Below are positions 27,695 to 40,914 of a DNA stretch of 64,000 nt, in pieces. Below the pieces are notes generated by a model. That model worked only from the letters and a program-made list of their open reading frames with translations. It had not been told where the DNA came from and did not search any database. Numbering within the stretch: position 1 is the stretch's first letter; every line of letters begins with the position of its first letter. The DNA is taken from assembly GCF_019008365.1 (NCBI RefSeq), contig NZ_JAHHUL010000002.1, forward strand, positions 62,001 to 126,000, written 5' to 3'. Source of the stretch: Phosphitispora fastidiosa. GTDB lineage: Bacteria > Bacillota > Thermincolia > Thermincolales > UBA2595. The position numbers and the translations under genes were made by a program.

Positions 27695-30520
27695 TTAACC
27701 GGCAGCATAGCCTACCTTTTTTGCCTCAGAAATAATCTCATTGTATACATTGATAGTTTCTGCTGCTATCACGCCCCAGTTATATGTGGAATTAACTTTA
27801 TCCCAGGCTGCCTGGCTTATCTGATGTGCCAGGGTCGGATCACCCAGGAGACTGACAACAGCTCCTGCGAGGCCTTCCACATCACCCGGAGATACCTTCA
27901 GACCATCGATCCTGTGTTCGATAACCTCAGCCAAACCGCCGGTTTCACTGGCAATTACCGGCACCCTGGTGGCCATCGCCTCAAGAGCAACTATTCCAAA
28001 GGGTTCATATAAACTGGGGAACACAGCAATATCAGACCCGGCAAACAGCAGGTTACGGGTTTCATCATTAGCAAACCCGGTGAAATAAACCTTTTCTCTT
28101 ACCCCCAGCTTTGCAGCCAGATTTTCCAGATGGTCCTGGTAGGGCCCTTTACCGGAAATGACAAATTTGGTATCGGGAAACTTCCGCAATATTTTGGGGA
28201 CTGCTTTAATCAAAACCTGGACCCCTTTTTCAGCTACCAACCGTCCGATAAAATATACCATTTTTTCATTTGGCGCTGCATAGCTGTTGCGGAAACCCGG
28301 GTCAACCGCTCTTGGCTGAACATTCTTGATTTCAACCCCATTGGCAATTATTCTGATCTTTTCAGCGGGAAGCTGAAATACCTGGGCAAGCTCCCTGGCC
28401 ATATATCTGCTGCAGCAGATAACTTCCCAGGACTCATAGGTAAGCTGCCACTCTATTTGGTTTATGTGCCGCTGAATGTCATTATGAATACCCCGATTCC
28501 TCCCGTATTCGGTGGCATGGATTGTGGAAACCAGGGGAATCTGGTATCTGTCCTTCAGATCCTTTGCTGACTGCGCCACCAGCCAGTCATGGGCATGAAT
28601 GAGGTCAAAGCCGTGTTCCCTGACCAACCCATGAGCCCGTTCCACCATGGCAGTATTGAGGCACTCAACCCACCTCAGGAAATTCCCGGAATCGCACTGC
28701 CGGGGCTGGACCCTGTAGACATGCACCCCATCAACCCTCTCATAATCAGTGGCTCCCGGAACATAACACGTTATCAAATGTATTTCCTCCCCCTGGGCAG
28801 CCAGCGCCCTTGAGAGATCATAAACATGTCTGGCCAGACCGCCAACTGTCTTTGGCGGGAATTCCCAGGACAGCATTAGAATTTTCCTGTTCTTACGTAC
28901 AGTTCCCTGACCGCGCCTGGTGAGTGACACCACTGTCGGAGTATCAGGCTGGTAAGCCCGGTAGTCGATGTCCGGAAATATGTTGTCGGCATGCTCCAAA
29001 ACTGAAATTTCATTTTCATTGAGATCATCGTTGGTAAGAGCCCAATAGAGGCGGCTGAACCTGGCAATGTGGTCCTTGGTCCTCTTCTCGGCATACCCTA
29101 CTGCCGTCTTCATTTTCATTATAAAGGCCCAATCCGAGCTCTGGGCCAAGAGCAGTTCCCTGGCCATCTGGTTTAACGCCCGTTTTCTGAGTCCTTCTGC
29201 ACCCGGATTAGCCTGGGCTGTCTCTGTCATGCGGGTCTCGGCTTTGTGCAGGTGCCGATAGATCCAGTCATTGGGAGGTGAAAGCCACACTTCGTTGTAT
29301 CCCTTATGGCCCCAACTGGCCATAGGTAGTGAAGCCACCTGATTTGTCGGGTAGAGGTTCAGGTATTCCCAGGGGGTAATTGTTTTTACTGTGTCCTGAT
29401 CATAATGCAGCTTCCGCAGCAGGAAATCAATCCAGTCAGGCCCTTCATACCACCAGTGGCCAAATAGCTCAGCGTCATAAGTTGAAACAACAATCGGCAG
29501 CCGGTCCATCCGGGAGGCCAGGTGCTGCATCTGTTTTTCCCTGTTAAACATAAAGTTGGCGGCGTGCTCTGCCGCCCTGTCCGCCGCAGCTGCAGGGTTA
29601 TAGACCTCCTTTTGGTCCGTCTTCCCGGTGATGCGGTAATACTTGATGCCGGTATCTATACGCAGGTTGTTCTCCCCCACATATGGCCCGACATAGTCGA
29701 TGTCCAGATCATAACCGATATCCCGGTAAAACTCACGATACCAATAATCACCCGGATAACCCTGGTTCATATCCCAAACCTGCTTGGAAGTTTCCGGGTC
29801 ACGCCCGAAAGCAGCAACACCTCCGGGTGTGTAAAGCGGCGCATATATACCGTGCACCGGACTCGGAGTTGCAAACATAATCCCATGGGTATCTGTGAAA
29901 AAAAACTGGATCCCATAAGCCTTGAGGATTTCATCTATCCCAGGGGTATACCCGCACTCAGGCAGCCAGATACCTCTGGGCGGGCTGCCAAAATGTCTGG
30001 TAAACAGGTCCACAGCCACAGCAACCTGTGCCCTGATGCTCTCTTTTCTCTTCATTAGAGGAAGAAAACCGTGGGTGGCACAGCTTGTGATAAGTTCAAC
30101 ACAGTCCTTTTCCCGGAATTTTCTGAAAGCCTGAAGCAGGTTAGTTCCATACCTGTTCACAAAAATATCCCTGATTTCCCGGAACCTCTCCAGGTACATA
30201 TGAGCCGTGTCCTCAAATTCACTCCCCGCAGTCCGTTCAGTCTCTCTGCCGGCCAGTTCAATAAGTTGATTGAGGTGCATAAGGTAGCGCTTCCGCAGCA
30301 AGTCATCTGCCATCATCGAAATCAATGGCGGGGACAAGGATACTGTAACCCTGAAATCCACGCCATCATCCAACAAACCATCAAAAATCTTAATCAACGG
30401 TATATAGGTTTCGGTAAGGGCCTCAAAGAACCACTTTTCTTCGAGGTAATTCTCTTTTTCAGGATGCCGTATGTAAGGCAGGTGTGCATGTAAAACAAGC
30501 GCAAGATAGCCTCTTAGCAT
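27695..30520 (-). CDS. GH57-GT4 fusion: alpha-glucan branching-type hydrolase joined to a glycosyltransferase
   Basis: A 941-residue bifunctional enzyme. Residues 1-about 510 form a GH57 domain (LALVLHAHLPYIRHPE; nucleophile motif IWLPECGYTPG; acid motif YDAELFGHWWYEG followed by C-terminal helices), closest to branching-enzyme-type GH57. Residues from about 550 form a GT-B transferase (MLSWEFPPKTVGGLARHV; YFIGRLVAEKGVQ; FPSLYEPFGIVALEAMA with the E-x7-E motif). A polymer could be extended and branched by one protein. The frame is open to 30853 but that part is antisense-like shadow of the DUF4912 gene; ATG 30520 opens with the GH57 motif one base after the DUF4912 stop. Confidence 0.9.
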   Translation of the reverse strand: MLRGYLALVLHAHLPYIRHPEKENYLEEKWFFEALTETYIPLIKIFDGLLDDGVDFRVTVSLSPPLISMMADDLLRKRYLMHLNQLIELAGRETERTAGSEFEDTAHMYLERFREIRDIFVNRYGTNLLQAFRKFREKDCVELITSCATHGFLPLMKRKESIRAQVAVAVDLFTRHFGSPPRGIWLPECGYTPGIDEILKAYGIQFFFTDTHGIMFATPSPVHGIYAPLYTPGGVAAFGRDPETSKQVWDMNQGYPGDYWYREFYRDIGYDLDIDYVGPYVGENNLRIDTGIKYYRITGKTDQKEVYNPAAAADRAAEHAANFMFNREKQMQHLASRMDRLPIVVSTYDAELFGHWWYEGPDWIDFLLRKLHYDQDTVKTITPWEYLNLYPTNQVASLPMASWGHKGYNEVWLSPPNDWIYRHLHKAETRMTETAQANPGAEGLRKRALNQMARELLLAQSSDWAFIMKMKTAVGYAEKRTKDHIARFSRLYWALTNDDLNENEISVLEHADNIFPDIDYRAYQPDTPTVVSLTRRGQGTVRKNRKILMLSWEFPPKTVGGLARHVYDLSRALAAQGEEIHLITCYVPGATDYERVDGVHVYRVQPRQCDSGNFLRWVECLNTAMVERAHGLVREHGFDLIHAHDWLVAQSAKDLKDRYQIPLVSTIHATEYGRNRGIHNDIQRHINQIEWQLTYESWEVICCSRYMARELAQVFQLPAEKIRIIANGVEIKNVQPRAVDPGFRNSYAAPNEKMVYFIGRLVAEKGVQVLIKAVPKILRKFPDTKFVISGKGPYQDHLENLAAKLGVREKVYFTGFANDETRNLLFAGSDIAVFPSLYEPFGIVALEAMATRVPVIASETGGLAEVIEHRIDGLKVSPGDVEGLAGAVVSLLGDPTLAHQISQAAWDKVNSTYNWGVIAAETINVYNEIISEAKKVGYAAG

Positions 30521-30521
30521 C

Positions 30522-31049
30522 TTAATCCTCCTCACTGTCATTATTATTGGAATTGATATAAACGCCGTCACTGCTGAAGGTTTCCTGTTCTGTCGGCCAT
30601 TCCGCAGGTTTCTTCCCGGACAACCGGTCCAGCAGATCCGCCATGACGAGTCCCGAGCCGTCAGCCAGGCTGTCCCGCGGTGTCTGGATAACATCAGACC
30701 TGAGCAGGCAGACAAACCTGCCGTCAGGAGAAAAAACACCCAGGTCAGCACAATAAGAATGGTTTGCCTTGACATCAGTAATATAATAATTATTTGCCAA
30801 GGAATGTACGTTGAGGTCATAACTGCCATGGGCTTTATTCCTGTCCTCACCAAGCCCGGTCAAGTCGTAAACACGCAGCGTAAGTTGTATTTCCCCCCAG
30901 GGTCGTCCAAATTCCCCGGCTACCAAGTCCATCTGCTCATTGGAAATCTCCCAGTAGGTAAAAATACAGTGTGGATCTCTTACGAGAAGCATGACAGAAT
31001 TTTCATTGTAACTGGCCGGAAACCCGTATTCAGGCACGGTAACACTCAT
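30522..31049 (-). CDS. DUF4912 domain protein
   Basis: A 175-residue protein with the DUF4912 pattern: SVMLLVRDPHCIFTYWEIS, LTLRVYDLTG, and NYYITDVKANHSYCADLGV, resembling a carbohydrate-binding or Ig-like fold. DUF4912 genes are often next to GH57 and glycogen-type genes; the role is unknown. The C-terminal 40 residues are acidic and low-complexity. ATG 31049 lies after GGAGGAGAGG. First gene of the alpha-glucan operon, behind a leader with a c-di-GMP riboswitch. Confidence 0.8.
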   Translation of the reverse strand: MSVTVPEYGFPASYNENSVMLLVRDPHCIFTYWEISNEQMDLVAGEFGRPWGEIQLTLRVYDLTGLGEDRNKAHGSYDLNVHSLANNYYITDVKANHSYCADLGVFSPDGRFVCLLRSDVIQTPRDSLADGSGLVMADLLDRLSGKKPAEWPTEQETFSSDGVYINSNNNDSEED

Positions 31050-31341
31050 CTAAGCCTCTCCTCCCCCAAAATAAATACATGGTCATTATATGCGGACCTT
31101 CTTTAAAAAGAACTACACCTGTCAGAAATTTCACAAACCTAAAAAATCATTCATTGTAACTGTATTCTCAAAAAGCCTTTATTTCCCTTGTATTTTTTTT
31201 GCTGTTATATTGTCAAATTAAGGACATTTGCAGATATAGACCTGTAAAAAAAGTAAACACATGTTCATCAGTTGGTGAAATCCTGCAAAAATACAAGCAG
31301 AAAATGCGCGTAAAAAATGCCTGTAAAATAACAAAAATACA
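31050..31341 (-). other. Long leader between riboswitch terminator and DUF4912 gene
   Basis: About 290 bases follow the riboswitch terminator before the DUF4912 start. I see no open reading frame with a ribosome site. TATAAT occurs at 31085-31090 (minus strand) with a poor -35, and TTGACA occurs about 100 bases upstream of it with a poor -10, so a second promoter inside the leader cannot be excluded. Confidence 0.4.
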
Positions 31342-31371
31342 AGCCTGTCCCCGGGTTAACGGGAACAGGCT
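31342..31371 (-). terminator. Intrinsic terminator of riboswitch 1
   Basis: AGCCTGTTCCCG pairs with CGGGGACAGGCT on the minus strand, followed by a T-rich run. It lies 35 bases after the c-di-GMP aptamer, the normal distance for an expression platform, and its sequence is close to the terminator at 32704-32731. Confidence 0.8.
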
Positions 31372-31406
31372 CACATTGCCGTCCAAAATCACCACGCTGC
31401 TATTCT

Positions 31407-31484
31407 CCGGTAACCCGGCTGTCAGGGATATTATCCCAGACCCGTGGTTTTGCGCCCCCACCTCTCAATGGGTTTGCCTTTATC
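31407..31484 (-). promoter_or_regulatory. c-di-GMP-I (GEMM) riboswitch 1, variant core
   Basis: On the minus strand: GGCAAACCCA, a P2 stem capped by a GAGA tetraloop, GGCGCAAAACCACGGGTC, a P3 hairpin and AGCCGGGTTACCGG. These are the landmarks of the c-di-GMP-I aptamer. The core departs from the two other copies (GGCGCAAAACC instead of GACGCAAAGCC). It has its own promoter (31539-31567) and a terminator after it, and it precedes the DUF4912/GH57-GT4 operon. Confidence 0.9.
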
Positions 31485-31538
31485 TGAATAATGATATTTA
31501 CTTAGTTGAAGTAAGTAACCTGAAACTTTTATTAATTA

Positions 31539-31567
31539 ATTATATACTTTCTTAACAAATATTTCAA
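31539..31567 (-). promoter_or_regulatory. Promoter of riboswitch 1 transcript
   Basis: TTGAAA (31567-31562), a 17-base spacer and a perfect TATAAT (31544-31539) on the minus strand. The expected start is about 50 bases before the aptamer. Confidence 0.85.
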
Positions 31568-31619: not shown

Positions 31620-31646
31620 AAAAAAAGACCGCATCGTGTGCGGTCG
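31620..31646 (-). terminator. Terminator of the transglutaminase gene
   Basis: GACCGC-ACACGAT-GCGGTC followed by eight or more T on the minus strand, 30 bases after the stop codon. Confidence 0.9.
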
Positions 31647-31675: not shown

Positions 31676-32533
31676 TTAATAGACTTCCTGGGTTTTCTTA
31701 TGGGTGGTTCCAAAAATCCCTGCATCCTGGTCAAATACCTTCCAGACTGTATCCATGGTGACCCATCTATCGCCAATCCGGACCTCGTTCCAGGCGTGCC
31801 CGTACCAGGTTCCCCCGGTCCCGGCCTCTCCGATTACGGTCCTGGCTTCAATCCCTTCGGCCCGGCACATTGCGGTAACCAGGTTTGCGTAGTCCCGGCA
31901 CAGCCCTTTTTGGGTCTGTAGAGCCTTCACAGCGCCGTCATTATCATAAAATTCACCGCGGCGAAACTTGTCCATGTCATAAACCATGTTTTTGCTGACC
32001 CACTGGAAAATGGCTTTGGTCCTGCTGTAGTCATCCCCGGCTTGTCCTACTATCTGCCGCGCTTTATTGGTTATTACTGGGTTATTGCTTTCAATCCCCC
32101 ATGAAGGGAGCAGATATCTCTTATCACCGTTGTCAGTGTTCTCAATCTGTGCTCTGGCCAGCGAATCATACGCAATCGTACCGGCCTGACCCGGTTTTAC
32201 CAGGTTGAAATCCACCCGGTATGTGCCTTGTCCAAATCTCAGGTATACAGCCCCGGCAACCGTATTGCCAACTTTAGGGTAATAGTAGTAGGTCTGGTCA
32301 TCACCCAGAACAGTCCTGACAATTATTCCTGTATATTTTTCGGTAACAGTACCCTGGAAACCGAACCAGGTATCAAAGCTGTTACTAGCCAGTGTCACCG
32401 AATTACCTTCGGTGTAAGGGGAAAACCATCTGATGTTTGCCTCCCCGGCAAATGCTGTCGGAGCAAATGTAGTGATAAGAATAATAGCAGTTGAGATTAT
32501 CAGAATCCTTCTAAGCAGCCTGAAATCTTTCAC
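31676..32533 (-). CDS. Secreted transglutaminase-like protein under c-di-GMP riboswitch control
   Basis: A 285-residue protein with a signal peptide (VKDFRLLRRILIISTAIILI to FAPTAFAGEA), an N-terminal beta-rich region and a transglutaminase-core domain. The catalytic triad is visible: Cys in TQKGLCRDYANLV, His in WYGHAWNEVRIG and Asp in RWVTMDTVW. The family includes peptidases and cross-linking enzymes, so either cleavage or cross-linking of surface proteins is possible. GTG 32533 has GGAGG eight bases upstream, directly at the 3' end of riboswitch 2; the frame remains open through both riboswitches to 32833 but that part is untranslated. Confidence 0.88.
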   Translation of the reverse strand: MKDFRLLRRILIISTAIILITTFAPTAFAGEANIRWFSPYTEGNSVTLASNSFDTWFGFQGTVTEKYTGIIVRTVLGDDQTYYYYPKVGNTVAGAVYLRFGQGTYRVDFNLVKPGQAGTIAYDSLARAQIENTDNGDKRYLLPSWGIESNNPVITNKARQIVGQAGDDYSRTKAIFQWVSKNMVYDMDKFRRGEFYDNDGAVKALQTQKGLCRDYANLVTAMCRAEGIEARTVIGEAGTGGTWYGHAWNEVRIGDRWVTMDTVWKVFDQDAGIFGTTHKKTQEVY

Positions 32534-32546
32534 GGCCAAAACCTCC

Positions 32547-32625
32547 TTCGGTAACCCGGCTATCTGGAATATCCAGACCCGTGGCTTTGCGTCCCCACCT
32601 CTCGATGGGTTTGCCTTTATCGGGA
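32547..32625 (-). promoter_or_regulatory. c-di-GMP-I riboswitch 2 (gene-proximal of a tandem pair)
   Basis: On the minus strand: GGCAAACCCATC, GAGA tetraloop, GGGGACGCAAAGCCACGGG, a P3 hairpin TCTGGA-TAT-TCCAGA and AGCCGGGTTACCG. The ribosome site GGAGG of the transglutaminase gene starts two bases after the closing segment, so ligand binding can control ribosome access directly; there is no terminator between. Confidence 0.93.
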
Positions 32626-32703
32626 GTGACAGTGTTTCCAATCTGGAAAAACTCTTCATTTCCCAATATAGTTTTGGTGAGTATTCACTTTGGTAAACAA
32701 TTA

Positions 32704-32731
32704 AGCCTGTCTCCGGGTTCCGGAAACAGGC
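32704..32731 (-). terminator. Terminator between the tandem riboswitches
   Basis: GCCTGTTTCCGG pairs with CCGGAGACAGGC on the minus strand, followed by TTAATTGTTT. It stands 30 bases after riboswitch 3 and before riboswitch 2, so riboswitch 3 can act by transcription termination. Confidence 0.8.
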
Positions 32732-32760
32732 CATGAAATAAACACTGCCTAAATATAACT

Positions 32761-32838
32761 CCCCGGTAACCCGGCTATCTGGAGTTACCCAGACCCGTGG
32801 CTTTGCGTCCCCACCTCTCGATGGGTTTGCCATTATCA
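32761..32838 (-). promoter_or_regulatory. c-di-GMP-I riboswitch 3 (promoter-proximal of a tandem pair)
   Basis: On the minus strand: GGCAAACCCATC, GAGA tetraloop, GGGGACGCAAAGCCACGGG, P3 and AGCCGGGTTACCGG. The P2 and core are identical to riboswitch 2; P3 differs. It lies about 25 bases after the start site expected from the promoter at 32868-32896. Confidence 0.93.
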
Positions 32839-32867
32839 GAATGAGTTGTTAAATTATTTTCATTTTT

Positions 32868-32896
32868 ATTATACACCTGTATTTTAAATAGCGCAA
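32868..32896 (-). promoter_or_regulatory. Promoter of the tandem riboswitch-transglutaminase transcript
   Basis: TTGCGC (32896-32891), 17-base spacer, TATAAT (32873-32868) on the minus strand, immediately upstream of riboswitch 3 and 63 bp after the galU stop. Confidence 0.8.
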
Positions 32897-32958
32897 GAGT
32901 TTTTGTTTAATTTTGTCAAATCTTTGTCAGATTTTGTTGAAATGCAGCATTACAGCAG

Positions 32959-35749: not shown

Positions 35750-36628
35750 TCAATGTCCACTGATAAATTTGGTTTGAGGTTCTAATTTCTGATCACCATA
35801 TTTAACGGCAGCCGTATAGTATGTATCCAGTTTTACCGGGTATTTTTCGGCATCAAACATCAGCCGGTAGTGTGGTTTGTGCAGTCCGTGTTCCTCCCAC
35901 TCCAGGGTGTCGTCGACCACACTGAAGATATATTCCACAGGCTGGCCGGCATCATTTACTCCGGTTATAACTAAATCCACCCCTCTTTTGATTATTTCAA
36001 AGGTACCGTTCTGAACCAAATGGAACCTGATGGGCATTATCATACCCTTGCGCACATGGACATCGGGCTTTTCCAAAGGCGGGTCCCAAACAACACCTCC
36101 ACCTTCAATATATGGAGGATGCTCAACAGCGTTAAGGACAAAGGTTACACCTGTGGATAATCCCTGGTATTCATTGCCGCATTCGGCCGGAAAACCTACC
36201 TGAAAGTCAAATACATCAGTTCCTCCTGCACCCAAAACCCCCAATACCAGGTCGTTTAGGTCCTTAAGCTTACCATTATAAAGGACGTTTTGGGCACTGT
36301 CCTTAATCACTAAGTCAAGGACACTATAGTACATCTCACTGCCGTTTTCCATAACAACCTCTATATCATAGGAAAAATCCAGATTCCCTTCATTTTTCAC
36401 GGTCAGCGGGGCAGCAGCCTGTTGACCGGGAGCCATATTGGGGGCGCTAATGAAACCACTTGACGGAGAAGTAGTTATGGATAAGTCAGAATCAGTTTCA
36501 ACAGCAACAACAAGTCCTTCATCCTGCATAAAAACAGCATAAAAAATAAAGATTACCAGGAAAACAGTTAAAACATATTTTATATATTTTGTTGCCTTTA
36601 AGAACGCCTTAATATCATACCTGGCCAT
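35750..36628 (-). CDS. Membrane-anchored TasA/CalY-like surface protein
   Basis: A 292-residue protein with a signal-anchor (about residues 16-34, YIKYVLTVFLVIFIFYAVF) and an extracellular beta-rich region. The segment ISAPNMAPGQQAAAPLTVKNEGNLDFSYDIEV matches the CalY/TasA-type domain (peptidase-M73-like camelysin), but the usual SipW motif ATFAYFTD after the helix is missing. The last 110 residues form a second, unrelated domain. It could be the cell-side anchor or cap of the fibre made from the three genes upstream (inference). Last gene of the operon. Confidence 0.65.
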   Translation of the reverse strand: MARYDIKAFLKATKYIKYVLTVFLVIFIFYAVFMQDEGLVVAVETDSDLSITTSPSSGFISAPNMAPGQQAAAPLTVKNEGNLDFSYDIEVVMENGSEMYYSVLDLVIKDSAQNVLYNGKLKDLNDLVLGVLGAGGTDVFDFQVGFPAECGNEYQGLSTGVTFVLNAVEHPPYIEGGGVVWDPPLEKPDVHVRKGMIMPIRFHLVQNGTFEIIKRGVDLVITGVNDAGQPVEYIFSVVDDTLEWEEHGLHKPHYRLMFDAEKYPVKLDTYYTAAVKYGDQKLEPQTKFISGH

Positions 36629-36670
36629 TTTTCCTCTTCACCTTTTGTAATTATTTTGAGTTAATTACTG

Positions 36671-36705
36671 TTTAAGCCGCGAGAATTGGATTCCCGCGGC
36701 TTAAA
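36671..36705 (-). repeat. Intercistronic hairpin
   Basis: TTTAAGCCGCG and CGCGGCTTAAA form a perfect 11-bp stem between two genes of the TasA operon, with no T run. Such stems often set mRNA stability or partial termination, giving more of the upstream fibre genes. Confidence 0.6.
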
Positions 36706-36750
36706 TATATCTTCCAAGAACGCCCTTCAGCTTTTTAAATTATCTGTCCC

Positions 36751-37413
36751 TTAAATTTGTTCTGCATAGAACGCAAAATCAAATATGAAGTTTTTACCTT
36801 GAATATCGTTTCCTGCATTTGTTGACAATGTCGCCTCAAAGGTAACATTAGCTGAACCAACCTGACCGGCATTTACATAAATAATTGAGTCAGTCGGGAC
36901 ATAGTCGTTAAGTAAACCACGAAGTGGCCCATTATACAATACTGCATTACCTGAGGGATACATTATCTTAATATTCATTTTGTCTATAAACTCATCATAA
37001 GCCGCTCCCGTTGTTTCCCCGGAAATAACGACATCGTTTGAATTGGTATATTGCGCCTGCACATTAGCTTTAACCTTTGTCACCTTTGCATCTATAGTTC
37101 CTCTGTTATAAAGATTCATAGCTCTCATAACTGAATCTCCGGGTGCCCAGCCACCAATACATTCTCCACTAGGAGTCCGTGTAGCAATTTCGTCATAGGG
37201 GTAATACCCACTTGGGTCAGAAGCTGCAGAATAAAACATGGGACCGGGAACCTTGTCCGATAAGTCCCTTTCCCCCTCAAGTATAATAGTTCCCGCAGTA
37301 AAGGTATTACCGGTATTAGCTGCCGTGTCAGTGAAGTAGGCAAAAGTTGCGCCGCCTATCAGCATACACACGGTTATTACCAGCAGAACTGGTATAATTA
37401 GCCTTTTTGCCAT
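36751..37413 (-). CDS. TasA/CalY-family SipW substrate 3
   Basis: A 220-residue secreted protein with a SipW-type signal peptide: short basic start, hydrophobic core, then GGATFAYFTDTAANTGNTFTAGT, the invariant region around the cleavage site. The mature part is a TasA/camelysin-like beta domain (GGWAPGDSVMRAMNLYNRGTID). Members polymerise into matrix amyloid fibres or act as camelysins. Ends FIFDFAFYAEQI, like the C-terminal beta strand of its paralogs. Single gene with good ribosome site. Confidence 0.85.
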   Translation of the reverse strand: MAKRLIIPVLLVITVCMLIGGATFAYFTDTAANTGNTFTAGTIILEGERDLSDKVPGPMFYSAASDPSGYYPYDEIATRTPSGECIGGWAPGDSVMRAMNLYNRGTIDAKVTKVKANVQAQYTNSNDVVISGETTGAAYDEFIDKMNIKIMYPSGNAVLYNGPLRGLLNDYVPTDSIIYVNAGQVGSANVTFEATLSTNAGNDIQGKNFIFDFAFYAEQI

Positions 37414-37479
37414 AATTTTGCCCCTTTCAGGGAATTAGGGGATAGACCCCTAATTTAATTAAATTATTATATACCGGTA

Positions 37480-38052
37480 TTAAAAACCTGCATAGCCGGT
37501 ATTAGCAGTTTGTGTAGCATTGATTTCGATATCGATAGTGAAGCTGCCACCTTGACAAAGATTGCCTGCAGAATCCGGCAGGAACGGTGTAACTTCCAGA
37601 GTCCTATAAGCATCCTTTGCCAATGTTCCTCCAGCAAAAGGACCATTTATACCATCAGCCAACCCAGTCATATCCACTGTTATTGGGGTTCCCCCGTCTA
37701 CTGATACTGTAAATCTCATAGCATTTTTTAATGCAATATCATTGGTTCCATCGGCATCCACAGTAACGTAGCCTCTCCACATCAGCGGCAAAGTGCCGTC
37801 ATTGGTAAGCTTTATAGTTTTGGTATCTCCATTCCAACCAGGAGCGATGCCTACTCCGTCGGTACCAACTTCATAAATTGCTCCACTAAATGCTGCATCA
37901 TCACCATCGGTAAGGTTAATATCAAGTTCACCTGCAGTAAACGTATTACCTTCATTTGCAGCCGTATCTGTAAACCAGGCAAAAGTGGCTCCACCCACTA
38001 AAGCAGAAACTAAGCCTATAATCATAAGGCTCATCATTATGCGCTTTTTCAT
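37480..38052 (-). CDS. TasA/CalY-family SipW substrate 2
   Basis: A 190-residue secreted protein. The signal peptide (MKKRIMMSLMIIGLVSALVG, then GATFAWFTDTAANEGNTFTAG) is nearly identical to that of the gene upstream, whereas the mature domain has diverged (GIAPGWNGDTKTIKLTNDGTLPLMWRGYV). The ribosome site region AAGGAGGAAAA and part of the leader (a GATTTTCTAG-containing block) are also shared, so the pair arose by tandem duplication. Predicted fibre subunit. Confidence 0.87.
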   Translation of the reverse strand: MKKRIMMSLMIIGLVSALVGGATFAWFTDTAANEGNTFTAGELDINLTDGDDAAFSGAIYEVGTDGVGIAPGWNGDTKTIKLTNDGTLPLMWRGYVTVDADGTNDIALKNAMRFTVSVDGGTPITVDMTGLADGINGPFAGGTLAKDAYRTLEVTPFLPDSAGNLCQGGSFTIDIEINATQTANTGYAGF

Positions 38053-38135
38053 GTTTTCTTTTTCCTCCTTAAATTTAAACTTAAATATTTCTTGGATTTC
38101 TGAATTTTCACTGAAGGGCGCCTAGAAAATCTATA

Positions 38136-38753
38136 TTAGGGTTCGTTCGGGTACTGGATGGCACTGAATTTTATATCACCGGTAAAGCTTGCTCCCTGAT
38201 AAGTATCGCTAGCAGTGGTCAGAACTCTTACATAGATGTCATACTCAATGTCATCATAGTTCGTTTGCATAGCTCCAGCAGTATCCCCATCCCATTTCAA
38301 GGGCGCGTTACTCATATTTGTTGTCAAATCATTCCCCATCAAATTTGACAATGCAGTCCAATCCTGTAACACAAGTGGATTAGTTTCTGTACCGGTTCCT
38401 ACATTGGGGCTCTCAATTTTTACTTCAAGCACGTCTTGTAAAGAACCACTACCCTCAATAAAGGCATACCACTCGATTGGCAGAGTGCCGGCATTACTTA
38501 CTTTAATAGTAGCATTACCTTCCCAACCGGGATAAACGTTGGTGGTGTCAATGAGCGCTGGTGCCGTTGAAGATGTCGGGTCACCAAATAAAGGCTGTGC
38601 ATTTTCTCTGTCTAATTCGAGGTCAACTGTTCCTGCAGAAAAAGTATTACCTTCATTTACAGCCGTATCTGTAAACCAGGCAAAAGTGGCTCCACCCACT
38701 AAAGCAGAAATTAAGCCTATTATCATAAGGCTCATCATTATGCGCTTTTTCAT
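38136..38753 (-). CDS. TasA/CalY-family SipW substrate 1
   Basis: A 205-residue secreted protein with the SipW-type signal GGATFAWFTDTAVNEGNTFSAG and a TasA-like beta domain (NVYPGWEGNATIKVSNAGTLPIEWYAFIEG; ends TGDIKFSAIQYPNEP). ATG 38753 follows AAGGAGG. First fibre-type gene of the operon, 250 bp after the TapA-like gene; this gap holds a duplicated leader block (38822-38841, matching 38111-38131) and nothing else I can support. Confidence 0.87.
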   Translation of the reverse strand: MKKRIMMSLMIIGLISALVGGATFAWFTDTAVNEGNTFSAGTVDLELDRENAQPLFGDPTSSTAPALIDTTNVYPGWEGNATIKVSNAGTLPIEWYAFIEGSGSLQDVLEVKIESPNVGTGTETNPLVLQDWTALSNLMGNDLTTNMSNAPLKWDGDTAGAMQTNYDDIEYDIYVRVLTTASDTYQGASFTGDIKFSAIQYPNEP

Positions 38754-39003
38754 GTTTTCCTTTTCCTCCTTACGTGTGAACTGAACTAATCAATAACTTT
38801 TTTTGCCTTCCAAACTTTGGGCTGAAGAGCTCTAGAAAATCCGTCTAAATTCTTTTTTTATACTTATCACTCCTTTCGATACTACCTTTTTGTTTCCCCC
38901 AAGGAGTAAAACTGCGAATTTACATTGCACCCTAGCTGAAGTTAATCGGTATTAATTTTCACAGGGTTATTCAGTACTATCTGCTAATTACAGGTAGAAT
39001 GTT

Positions 39004-40113
39004 TTATTTCTGCAGCTCACCGGCTTCCTCATCTTTTGAGGAATCTGTCGTATCGTCAGGTAAATTTCCTGCAGGATCCTCACTAACTGCCTCTATCGAA
39101 TTCTTTTTTGAATCTATAACTGCCGGGACATTTAAACTGCTATCTGAATCCAGAGGCTGAGCAACTTCTGTCTCTGGTTCATTGGGTTCTTCATCAGTAC
39201 CAATTGTTTCATTTGCAGTATCGATTGTTTCATTTGTTATTTCATTTGCTGGGCTGCCAACTACTTCCTCGATGAGCATTTCTAAAGGATCCTTGGTTGG
39301 CTCTACAATAACCGGGACACCCACCATATTTAGGGCTTCCTCCATAGCTACCGGGGCCTTCTCCCGGACCACAACTCTGGCAGGAACTCTCACAGACAGA
39401 AATTCCCCATTTACCGTCAGTACCAAATCTCCACTGTAAACCCCCGGACCTCTCCTGACATTGAGTTTCATATTCAGGGAATACTCTGCTTCTTCTCCCG
39501 ACCCTTCATCCATACAAAGGTTTGATGCTTCTTCCTCACCATATACGACTGAGGTAACATCCTCTGCAGCCTCCTGCTGCAATCTGTCAACAGAACCCGC
39601 GGAATCAGGCACAAGGATAAAACTCCCCTCTGTCCTATCAATTACTGAAGCAATCTCACCGTCAATCCGCCACCTAACGTTCAAATTCTCACCTGATACA
39701 TTGTGTATCTTTAATACATCATCAAAATTCCGGCCGGAACCTTCAACTACTTCACCAAAATCCAGGGTAATCTGGCCGTCTTTTTCTTGTGCTACTGTCG
39801 GAGTCTCTCCTTTCGGATCACCTGCTGCCGCCGGAAAGGTTGCCTGAGCTTTACCCGGTTCCAAAGATAGAAAACTGTCAATAGAGGCGGCTTGAAAAAA
39901 ATTGTTGCGGTTTTCTGCCCTTGCCGTGAAATATGAATGTGTTTGAGTAATCAGCCCCGAAATTAAGAGCAGCATCACTGCCACTGCCAAAATAACCGTC
40001 CGATAGCGGAAGCTGTTTTCTGCCTTATCAGCCTTCCTTATCCTTTCCAGTTGCTTTCTTTCCCATCTGGTCATATGCCAGCGACACGGAGTCTCTTCTA
40101 CTCTTTTGACCAT
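39004..40113 (-). CDS. TapA-like SipW-dependent matrix assembly protein (candidate)
   Basis: A 369-residue protein with a basic cytoplasmic stretch, a membrane helix (about residues 40-58) and THSYFTARAENRNNFFQAASI directly after, which resembles the SipW cleavage region (YFTA..N.F.A). The mature part begins with a beta domain (GQITLDFGEVVEGSGRNFDDVLKIHN) and ends in about 110 acidic, Thr/Asn/Glu-rich residues of low complexity. By position (between sipW and the TasA genes, overlapping sipW by 16 bp) it takes the place of TapA, the assembly factor in Bacillus, though order differs and sequence similarity is not evident. Confidence 0.6.
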   Translation of the reverse strand: MVKRVEETPCRWHMTRWERKQLERIRKADKAENSFRYRTVILAVAVMLLLISGLITQTHSYFTARAENRNNFFQAASIDSFLSLEPGKAQATFPAAAGDPKGETPTVAQEKDGQITLDFGEVVEGSGRNFDDVLKIHNVSGENLNVRWRIDGEIASVIDRTEGSFILVPDSAGSVDRLQQEAAEDVTSVVYGEEEASNLCMDEGSGEEAEYSLNMKLNVRRGPGVYSGDLVLTVNGEFLSVRVPARVVVREKAPVAMEEALNMVGVPVIVEPTKDPLEMLIEEVVGSPANEITNETIDTANETIGTDEEPNEPETEVAQPLDSDSSLNVPAVIDSKKNSIEAVSEDPAGNLPDDTTDSSKDEEAGELQK

Positions 40114-40685
40114 GGCTCAGCCACTGCCTCCTGTTTTTTCTTTTCCACTTCACCGGTAATGGCTTTACCTATGCTTCTAAGCTCACTTACAATAATTAAA
40201 ACTCCGGGAACAATAATCAGCCACACCAGACCCTGCTTTGTCTTGGCAAACTCCACAACCCTGCCAAAATACGGTATGCGAATTGTCTGCTGCCCAATTA
40301 CATTGTCTGCCGGCACCGGTTTCGAATCAATACTCCCATTAGCATCACCCTTGGTACGATAGCTGACACCGGTATCATCCTTAACCACTTCCGCAACCCG
40401 GTGAGTCACAATTCTCTTGGTATCCTCCGGATCTTTAAAGGTTATAACGTCACCCTTTTGGTATTCGGTCTGCTTTTTTTGACCGGATACCGCGATCACA
40501 TCTCCAGCCTCAAAAACCGGACTCATGCTGCCGCTCAAGACAACCATCAGCCTGTAGTCGGCCAGTTTGGGTAAACCGTCAGGCGAGATTTTGGAGCCTA
40601 CTGTAAAAAAGACCAGAACTACCATTACCAGTACTAACACTGCAATAAAGGCATTTCCAGCCAACTTCAATATCTTATTTCCCAC
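40098..40685 (-). CDS. sipW: SipW, ER-type signal peptidase I
   Basis: A 195-residue membrane protease that cleaves signal peptides of TasA-type proteins. It has an N-terminal helix, the catalytic Ser in LSGSMSPVFEAGDVIAV, and THRVAEV with His in place of the Lys of ordinary bacterial peptidases, the mark of the ER/SipW type, then GDANGSIDSKPVP and a C-terminal helix. The frame is open to 40781, but GTG 40685 has GGGAGGGG five bases upstream. First gene of the matrix operon; a 380-bp intergenic region lies before it. Confidence 0.93.
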   Translation of the reverse strand: MGNKILKLAGNAFIAVLVLVMVVLVFFTVGSKISPDGLPKLADYRLMVVLSGSMSPVFEAGDVIAVSGQKKQTEYQKGDVITFKDPEDTKRIVTHRVAEVVKDDTGVSYRTKGDANGSIDSKPVPADNVIGQQTIRIPYFGRVVEFAKTKQGLVWLIIVPGVLIIVSELRSIGKAITGEVEKKKQEAVAEPWSKE

Positions 40686-40914
40686 TTTTACCCCTCCCGC
40701 TAAACTGTTTAACCAGTCAAACAAATAATACAGCTCATTTTCCATTTTACACGTATAAATTAGCCATGTCCTGAAAAACATGTCGAGTAATTCTACGCCT
40801 AGTTAAGTGAATATTTGTCGTCTTTTGTATTATGGAGGGTAATTTTTACACGTGCTCATTTATTACATTTATGCATAATTCGCCAAAGCTTACTAATACT
40901 TGCCTCTATAACTA

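Follow-up and report, generated by a model that had tools for sequence, protein, structure and literature searches.

In the 64,000-nucleotide stretch of DNA analysed here (the window), two c-di-GMP-I aptamers stand in series before the gene of a secreted transglutaminase-core protein, and we consider it fairly probable, judging from the sequence, that they form a bi-mechanism tandem riboswitch that keeps the enzyme off at high c-di-GMP. The minus strand carries, in order, one promoter, aptamer A, a terminator, aptamer B, a Shine-Dalgarno (SD) sequence and the transglutaminase gene. This anatomy predicts that both aptamers are OFF switches, a regulatory sign left unstated in the preliminary description of this DNA, and that the enzyme would be made only at low c-di-GMP. 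The surrounding genome has 4.09 Mb and is close to Thermincola ferriacetica MAGs; together with its sisters G004 and G005 it makes up the three genomes termed Thermincola below.

Two c-di-GMP-I aptamers in a single leader

The promoter, read directly from the sequence, is of the sigma-A type (TTGCGC-17 nt-TATAAT; 32896-32868, minus strand), with the -35 box at 32896-32891 and the -10 box at 32873-32868. The leaders of five relatives have a similarly spaced TTGCNN-17-TATAAT/TAAAAT element before their first aptamer. Between aptamers A and B, the minus strand showed no promoter-like site, in agreement with the earlier proposal that one promoter serves both. Immediately 5′ of the -35 box, at 32897-32945 of the window, are TTTGACAAA-like direct repeats spaced by about 11 bp, a possible activator site; G003, G004 and G008 have comparable motifs upstream. 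An in-frame leader peptide was considered and rejected: in the window the frame runs through both aptamers without a stop (385 aa), but it reaches only 326 and 324 aa in the sister genomes.

Covariance search with RF01051 (cut-off, the gathering score, 35 bits) matched both aptamers, as the preliminary description had anticipated. Aptamer A (32761-32840, minus strand) scores 75.7 bits and aptamer B (32546-32624, minus strand) 78.1 bits, with cmscan E-values of 1.8e-14 and 9.2e-17, respectively; the corresponding RF03167 scores are 69.8 and 77.8 bits. The two cores are indeed identical, over 43 nt (GGCAAACCCATCGAGAGGTGGGGACGCAAAGCCACGGGTCTGG) in addition to 19 nt of the 3′ arm. If 18 sites were scattered at random in the window's genome, about 0.01 pairs on one strand and within 300 nt would be expected; since genus and family also conserve the doublet, a chance pairing is excluded.

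As read from the alignments, both aptamers and a third one in the window (aptamer C, see below) carry the pocket bases G20, A47 and C92, positions that we take to be in Vc2 numbering. This canonical pocket upholds the assignment of class and ligand type as c-di-GMP-I. The top Rfam label is nevertheless c-di-GMP-I-GGC (RF03167), a name that stands for the pocket bases of that variant family. If the label were taken at face value, the aptamers would be variants with an altered ligand; RF03167 is reported as the best family of the clan, and the window aptamers, like the GGC consensus, are devoid of the usual tetraloop-receptor sequence in P3. Yet RF03167 wins the clan competition by E-value only, whereas the RF01051 bit score is the higher one for all three aptamers. 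Moreover, all three have A at position 47 where the GGC consensus has G, so the A47G change is absent even though RF03167 scores above its cut-off. An altered, GGC-type ligand is thus most improbable, and it was rejected on pocket base 47 and the bit scores.

The first platform is a terminator after aptamer A

The terminator reported after the first aptamer is present as a hairpin of 13 bp (32704-32732, minus strand; -22 kcal/mol) that lies 3′ of aptamer A, includes the segment CCGGAACCCGG (32723-32713) and ends in the tail UUAAUUGUUU, a weak to mediocre U tract. The 3′ arm of aptamer A (CCGGGUUACCGGGG; 32761-32774, minus strand) is the proposed antiterminator strand: its CCGGGUU(A)CCGG stretch is complementary to CCGGAACCCGG, and the predicted duplex with 32723-32713 amounts to -22.0 kcal/mol, a strength matched by one of 29 control terminators. 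Across ten riboswitches from the window and its relatives, the arm pairs with its own terminator at -15.7 to -22.0 kcal/mol and 0-3 of the 29 controls pair equally well at each, in a comparison where the orthologous riboswitches are not independent and the controls are few. In addition, the hairpin and the CCCGG element are kept after the first aptamer in five relatives while the hairpin sequence changes.

The hairpin is self-contained and adjoins the U tract, so that pairing with the arm can only disrupt it, which argues that aptamer A is an OFF switch and that ligand binding probably leads to termination. We propose that aptamer A would, in the absence of ligand, pair its 3′ arm (CCGGGUUACCGG) with CCGGAACCCGG in the terminator and let RNA polymerase read through, whereas c-di-GMP would lock the arm into P3/P1, allowing the terminator to form and stop transcription. 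Such a platform resembles the Cd1 design (PMC9262584) and not that of Bc3-5 (PMC4759541).

The second platform adjoins the ribosome site

Aptamer B ends within the SD sequence AAGGAGG (32542-32548, minus strand; read directly), 8 nt 5′ of the GTG start at 32533, consistent with the earlier statement that the ribosome site adjoins the second aptamer. No terminator was found between aptamer B and the transglutaminase gene. On the full-length mRNA, c-di-GMP bound to aptamer B would stabilize an extended P1, in which CUCC (32623-32626, minus strand; predicted duplex), the proposed 5′ strand, forms base pairs with the SD's GGAG and prevents initiation; with no ligand at aptamer B, the SD would be free. 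Predicted folding with the aptamer core forced leaves the SD GGA unpaired with a probability of ~0.5 in the window, 0.15-0.19 in G005 and 0.16-0.20 in G004, compared to at least 0.9 with the P1 strand blocked (~0.95 in the window). Translational OFF control by aptamer B is therefore plausible as a prediction from these folds. When P1 and SD strands were swapped between loci, the cognate pairs were not favoured, a control that speaks neither for nor against covariation.

A simpler arrangement, in which only aptamer A regulates by transcriptional OFF and aptamer B is a duplicated ligand-binding copy of little consequence for translation, is unlikely but deserves weighing. It would fit the weak P1/SD pairing, in which 4 bp and, beyond a bulge, a further 2 bp give a predicted energy of -6.4 kcal/mol at 37 °C (-3.7 at 57 °C), as well as the shift of only about twofold in SD accessibility in the window's own sequence. 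The platform of aptamer B also varies, being a terminator in G008 and G006 and an SD in Thermincola and G003. On the other hand, only one to four differences separate the aptamer B sequences of the three Thermincola genomes, so that this aptamer must be under constraint; all three share an identical aptamer-SD junction, and SD-abutting aptamers recur in another family with a different sequence.

Opposed signs, with aptamer A OFF by termination and ligand at aptamer B exposing the SD, would give a band-pass or buffered output. A precedent for incoherent transcription-translation control exists in the c-di-GMP riboswitch Bc1 (PMC11218506), and in some predicted folds the ligand-free SD region forms a small ACC/GGU hairpin or other pairing. 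Against this, forcing the core lowers and blocking P1 raises SD accessibility in the three Thermincola sequences, and the G003 fold showed no clear change; we regard opposed signs as improbable and retain OFF control at both aptamers.

The doublet recurs before transglutaminase genes

The doublet is kept before the transglutaminase orthologue in both sister Thermincola genomes, in G003 and in G008. In G006 a single aptamer exceeds the cut-off; behind it come what is left of another aptamer, a second terminator and a gap in the assembly. In G005 (locus L038), an insert of ~130 nt with inverted repeats, resembling a small mobile element, separates the first terminator from the second aptamer. 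Among 20 more distant transglutaminase loci, all outside the family, that were scanned in a phylum sample of 398 genomes, 15 have c-di-GMP-I aptamers upstream, eight of them as doublets. The preliminary description held the target to be unlike those usually reported. This is not supported, given these 15 homologues and a published enrichment: a survey has tandem c-di-GMP-I riboswitches of Bacillota strongly enriched upstream of COG1305 transglutaminase-like genes (PMC12452182, Table 2).

Every doublet has a terminator-like hairpin after the first aptamer. According to a simple hairpin-plus-T script, the second platform is SD-adjacent in Thermincola, G003, G380 and G180, a terminator in G008, G006, G351, G152, G068 and G329, and ambiguous in G132 and G186. 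The P1/SD sequence of the SD-abutting design in G380 and G180, which belong to another family, is unlike that of Thermincola. At two loci, c-di-GMP-II-type riboswitches lie downstream of a transglutaminase gene that has a c-di-GMP-I doublet upstream: two RF01786 matches at L286 and one RF03169 match at L278.

The pocket base at position 20 differs between orthologous leaders

A GAGA-loop core is common to the transglutaminase aptamers of G003, G006, G008 and the three Thermincola genomes and has no exact match outside these leaders among the 398 genomes; the leaders differ at position 20. The cGAMP-type A20 is found in all five transglutaminase-leader aptamers of G003, G006 and G008 and in none of the six of the three Thermincola genomes, which all have G20, as do all three aptamers of the window; it occurs in 5/127 of the other aptamers of nine family genomes. 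G20 is a base of the ligand pocket, and A20 is a selectivity factor and not a hard filter (PMC9262584).

The window's genome has 17 GGDEF matches, and those read include none with a Hypr-type selectivity residue, so that c-di-GMP is expected to be the ligand. The Ser signature that marks Hypr cGAMP synthases (PMC6456294) was seen in none of the subset of GGDEF domains read in G000, G003, G006 and G008. A search for DncV-like synthases gave no match, and the control genomes likewise gave none. As a ligand in the window's genome, cGAMP was rejected on the G20 of the aptamers and on the GGDEF domains read. Since A20 acts as a soft selectivity factor and no Hypr Ser was seen, A20 may mean relaxed and not changed specificity.

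We tentatively raise the possibility that both leader aptamers switched ligand preference together, with A20 (cGAMP-type or relaxed) in three sister genera and G20 (c-di-GMP) in Thermincola; if true, the same gene-control device would have moved between two second messengers. The paired aptamers of the G008 leader are near-identical, with a single difference, which would suggest that homogenization spread the base change.

Three further loci are separate observations. In G132 (L274 1078-1344), from another family, the two aptamers of a transglutaminase doublet differ, the first with G20, the second with A20, and may form a two-ligand tandem. At G000:C19:83323-84229, near a prepilin-peptidase-like gene, an A20 and a G20 aptamer of the c-di-GMP-I class are separated by 0.7 kb, and this pair has orthologues in G004 and G005. 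A GGDEF domain with Asn (GHLTGN) at the base-selectivity site, where Asp is usual, is encoded at G000:C19:96004-96474, ~12 kb from an A20 aptamer.

The target is a secreted transglutaminase-core protein

The target gene (31676-32533, minus strand; GTG start at 32533) encodes a protein of 285 aa that matches PF01841 (E 3.5e-27) and has an N-terminus judged by eye to be signal-peptide-like, in line with the earlier view of a secreted transglutaminase-fold enzyme. An intrinsic terminator follows 3′ of the gene (31627-31645, minus strand). The putative catalytic residues Cys213, His247 and Asp262 (P0001 numbering) are invariant in six orthologues. PF01841 and PF04473 are the only Pfam matches of the protein, and the LapG-type family PF06035 gave no match in it. 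The nearest solved structure by both sequence and fold is a putative cysteine protease (3isr), with a sequence E-value of 1.3e-13 and a Foldseek match of 5.6e-6; the latter comes from a low-confidence AlphaFold model (mean pLDDT 64.5, six sequences) and lends weak support only. The enzyme most likely acts as a protease and not by cross-linking. LapG of P. fluorescens is reportedly a cysteine protease of the transglutaminase fold whose target, at low c-di-GMP, is a surface adhesin. LapG activity is under a protein receptor system (PMC3032545), whereas the window enzyme, to which PF06035 is unmatched, would be under an mRNA switch.

About 3-8 kb upstream of the transglutaminase gene, a minus-strand cluster (35750-40781) encodes three secreted proteins resembling TasA/camelysin, together with further exported proteins and an S26 signal peptidase. 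The cluster is likely a biofilm-fibre locus, and at a guess, from proximity, its TasA/camelysin-like proteins (TasA-like proteins at 36751-38753) might be candidate substrates of the transglutaminase.

A third riboswitch unit lies downstream

The preliminary description had not noticed a third c-di-GMP-I-type aptamer, aptamer C (31405-31487, minus strand; RF03167 67.1 bits, RF01051 72.6 bits), which belongs to the same GAGA-loop subgroup and lies 3′ of the transglutaminase gene, a position that it also occupies in G004 and G005. Its promoter, TTGAAA-17-TATAAT (31539-31567, minus strand), matches 11/12 consensus bases, and the terminator 3′ of the aptamer (31336-31377, minus strand) contains UUAACCCGG, complementary to the aptamer's CCGGGUUA. 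Coupling to the transglutaminase unit by read-through was considered and is less likely, because the terminator at 31645-31627 and the unit's own promoter at 31567-31539 intervene. The third unit (31336-31567) precedes the next operon, with a DUF4912 gene and a gene that fuses a GH57 branching enzyme to GT4 (27695-31049, minus strand), and alpha-glucan synthesis may be under c-di-GMP control via aptamer C.

Regulatory logic and comparison with known systems

At low c-di-GMP, the enzyme would be made and exported and would then, most likely by proteolysis, act on proteins of the cell surface or matrix. The second switch would mainly deepen repression and could silence mRNA that has already been made. 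A sharper or more digital response, as first suggested, is too strong a description: two independent equal OFF switches in series have a computed effective Hill coefficient of 1.19, which falls to 1.05 when their affinities differ 30-fold, and the EC10/EC90 span is 40 for two equal switches versus 81. Leak multiplies, and with 10% leak in each switch a 10-fold repression becomes 100-fold. The better claim is that control is tighter, and reversible on made mRNA, an argument also put forward for bi-mechanism systems in a survey of tandem riboswitches (PMC9481103).

In that survey, tandem c-di-GMP-I is the commonest tandem class, with 347 doublets; the bi-mechanism table contains SAM riboswitches only, c-di-GMP-I tandems are tabulated as pseudo-cooperative only, and platforms were not comprehensively surveyed, according to its authors (PMC9481103). 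Its SAM-II/SAM-V tandem, as described there, resembles the window in placing the first aptamer before a terminator and the second at the ribosome site for the same ligand and one gene, but it combines two different aptamer classes, compared to the near-identical c-di-GMP-I pair of the window (PMC9481103). The triple tandem Bc3-5 of B. thuringiensis likewise has c-di-GMP-I aptamers in one leader with a platform for each, but differs in its three terminators, its ON switches and its surface-protein operon (PMC4759541). As Bc3-5 switches are ON, the sign is not transferable between species. The loci of the COG1305 survey share aptamer class, doublet, kind of target and phylum with the window locus; the portion of the survey seen gives enrichment only, with no platforms, sign, pocket-base change or third riboswitch for those loci (PMC12452182).

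The proposed output parallels that of C. difficile zmpI/PPEP-1, where, in the excerpt available, a c-di-GMP-I OFF riboswitch governs a secreted protease and surface proteins are released at low c-di-GMP; that enzyme is a metalloprotease of a pathogen, under one class I riboswitch and not a tandem (PMC6366702). As far as the literature examined shows, three features are new: a c-di-GMP-I doublet that combines two kinds of output within one aptamer class, conserved in a genus and recurring in another family; a third riboswitch unit downstream of the transglutaminase; and the A20/G20 contrast between orthologous leaders, of which no description was found.

The locus offers a compact natural test of riboswitch stacking, with near-identical aptamers, one ligand and two outputs, next to close relatives that use two terminators. 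The A20/G20 difference in orthologous leaders provides matched pairs in which to test how specificity for cyclic dinucleotides evolves. Altogether, these loci suggest that secreted transglutaminase-core enzymes are commonly an output of low c-di-GMP in Bacillota; the surface-release model of C. difficile would thereby be extended.
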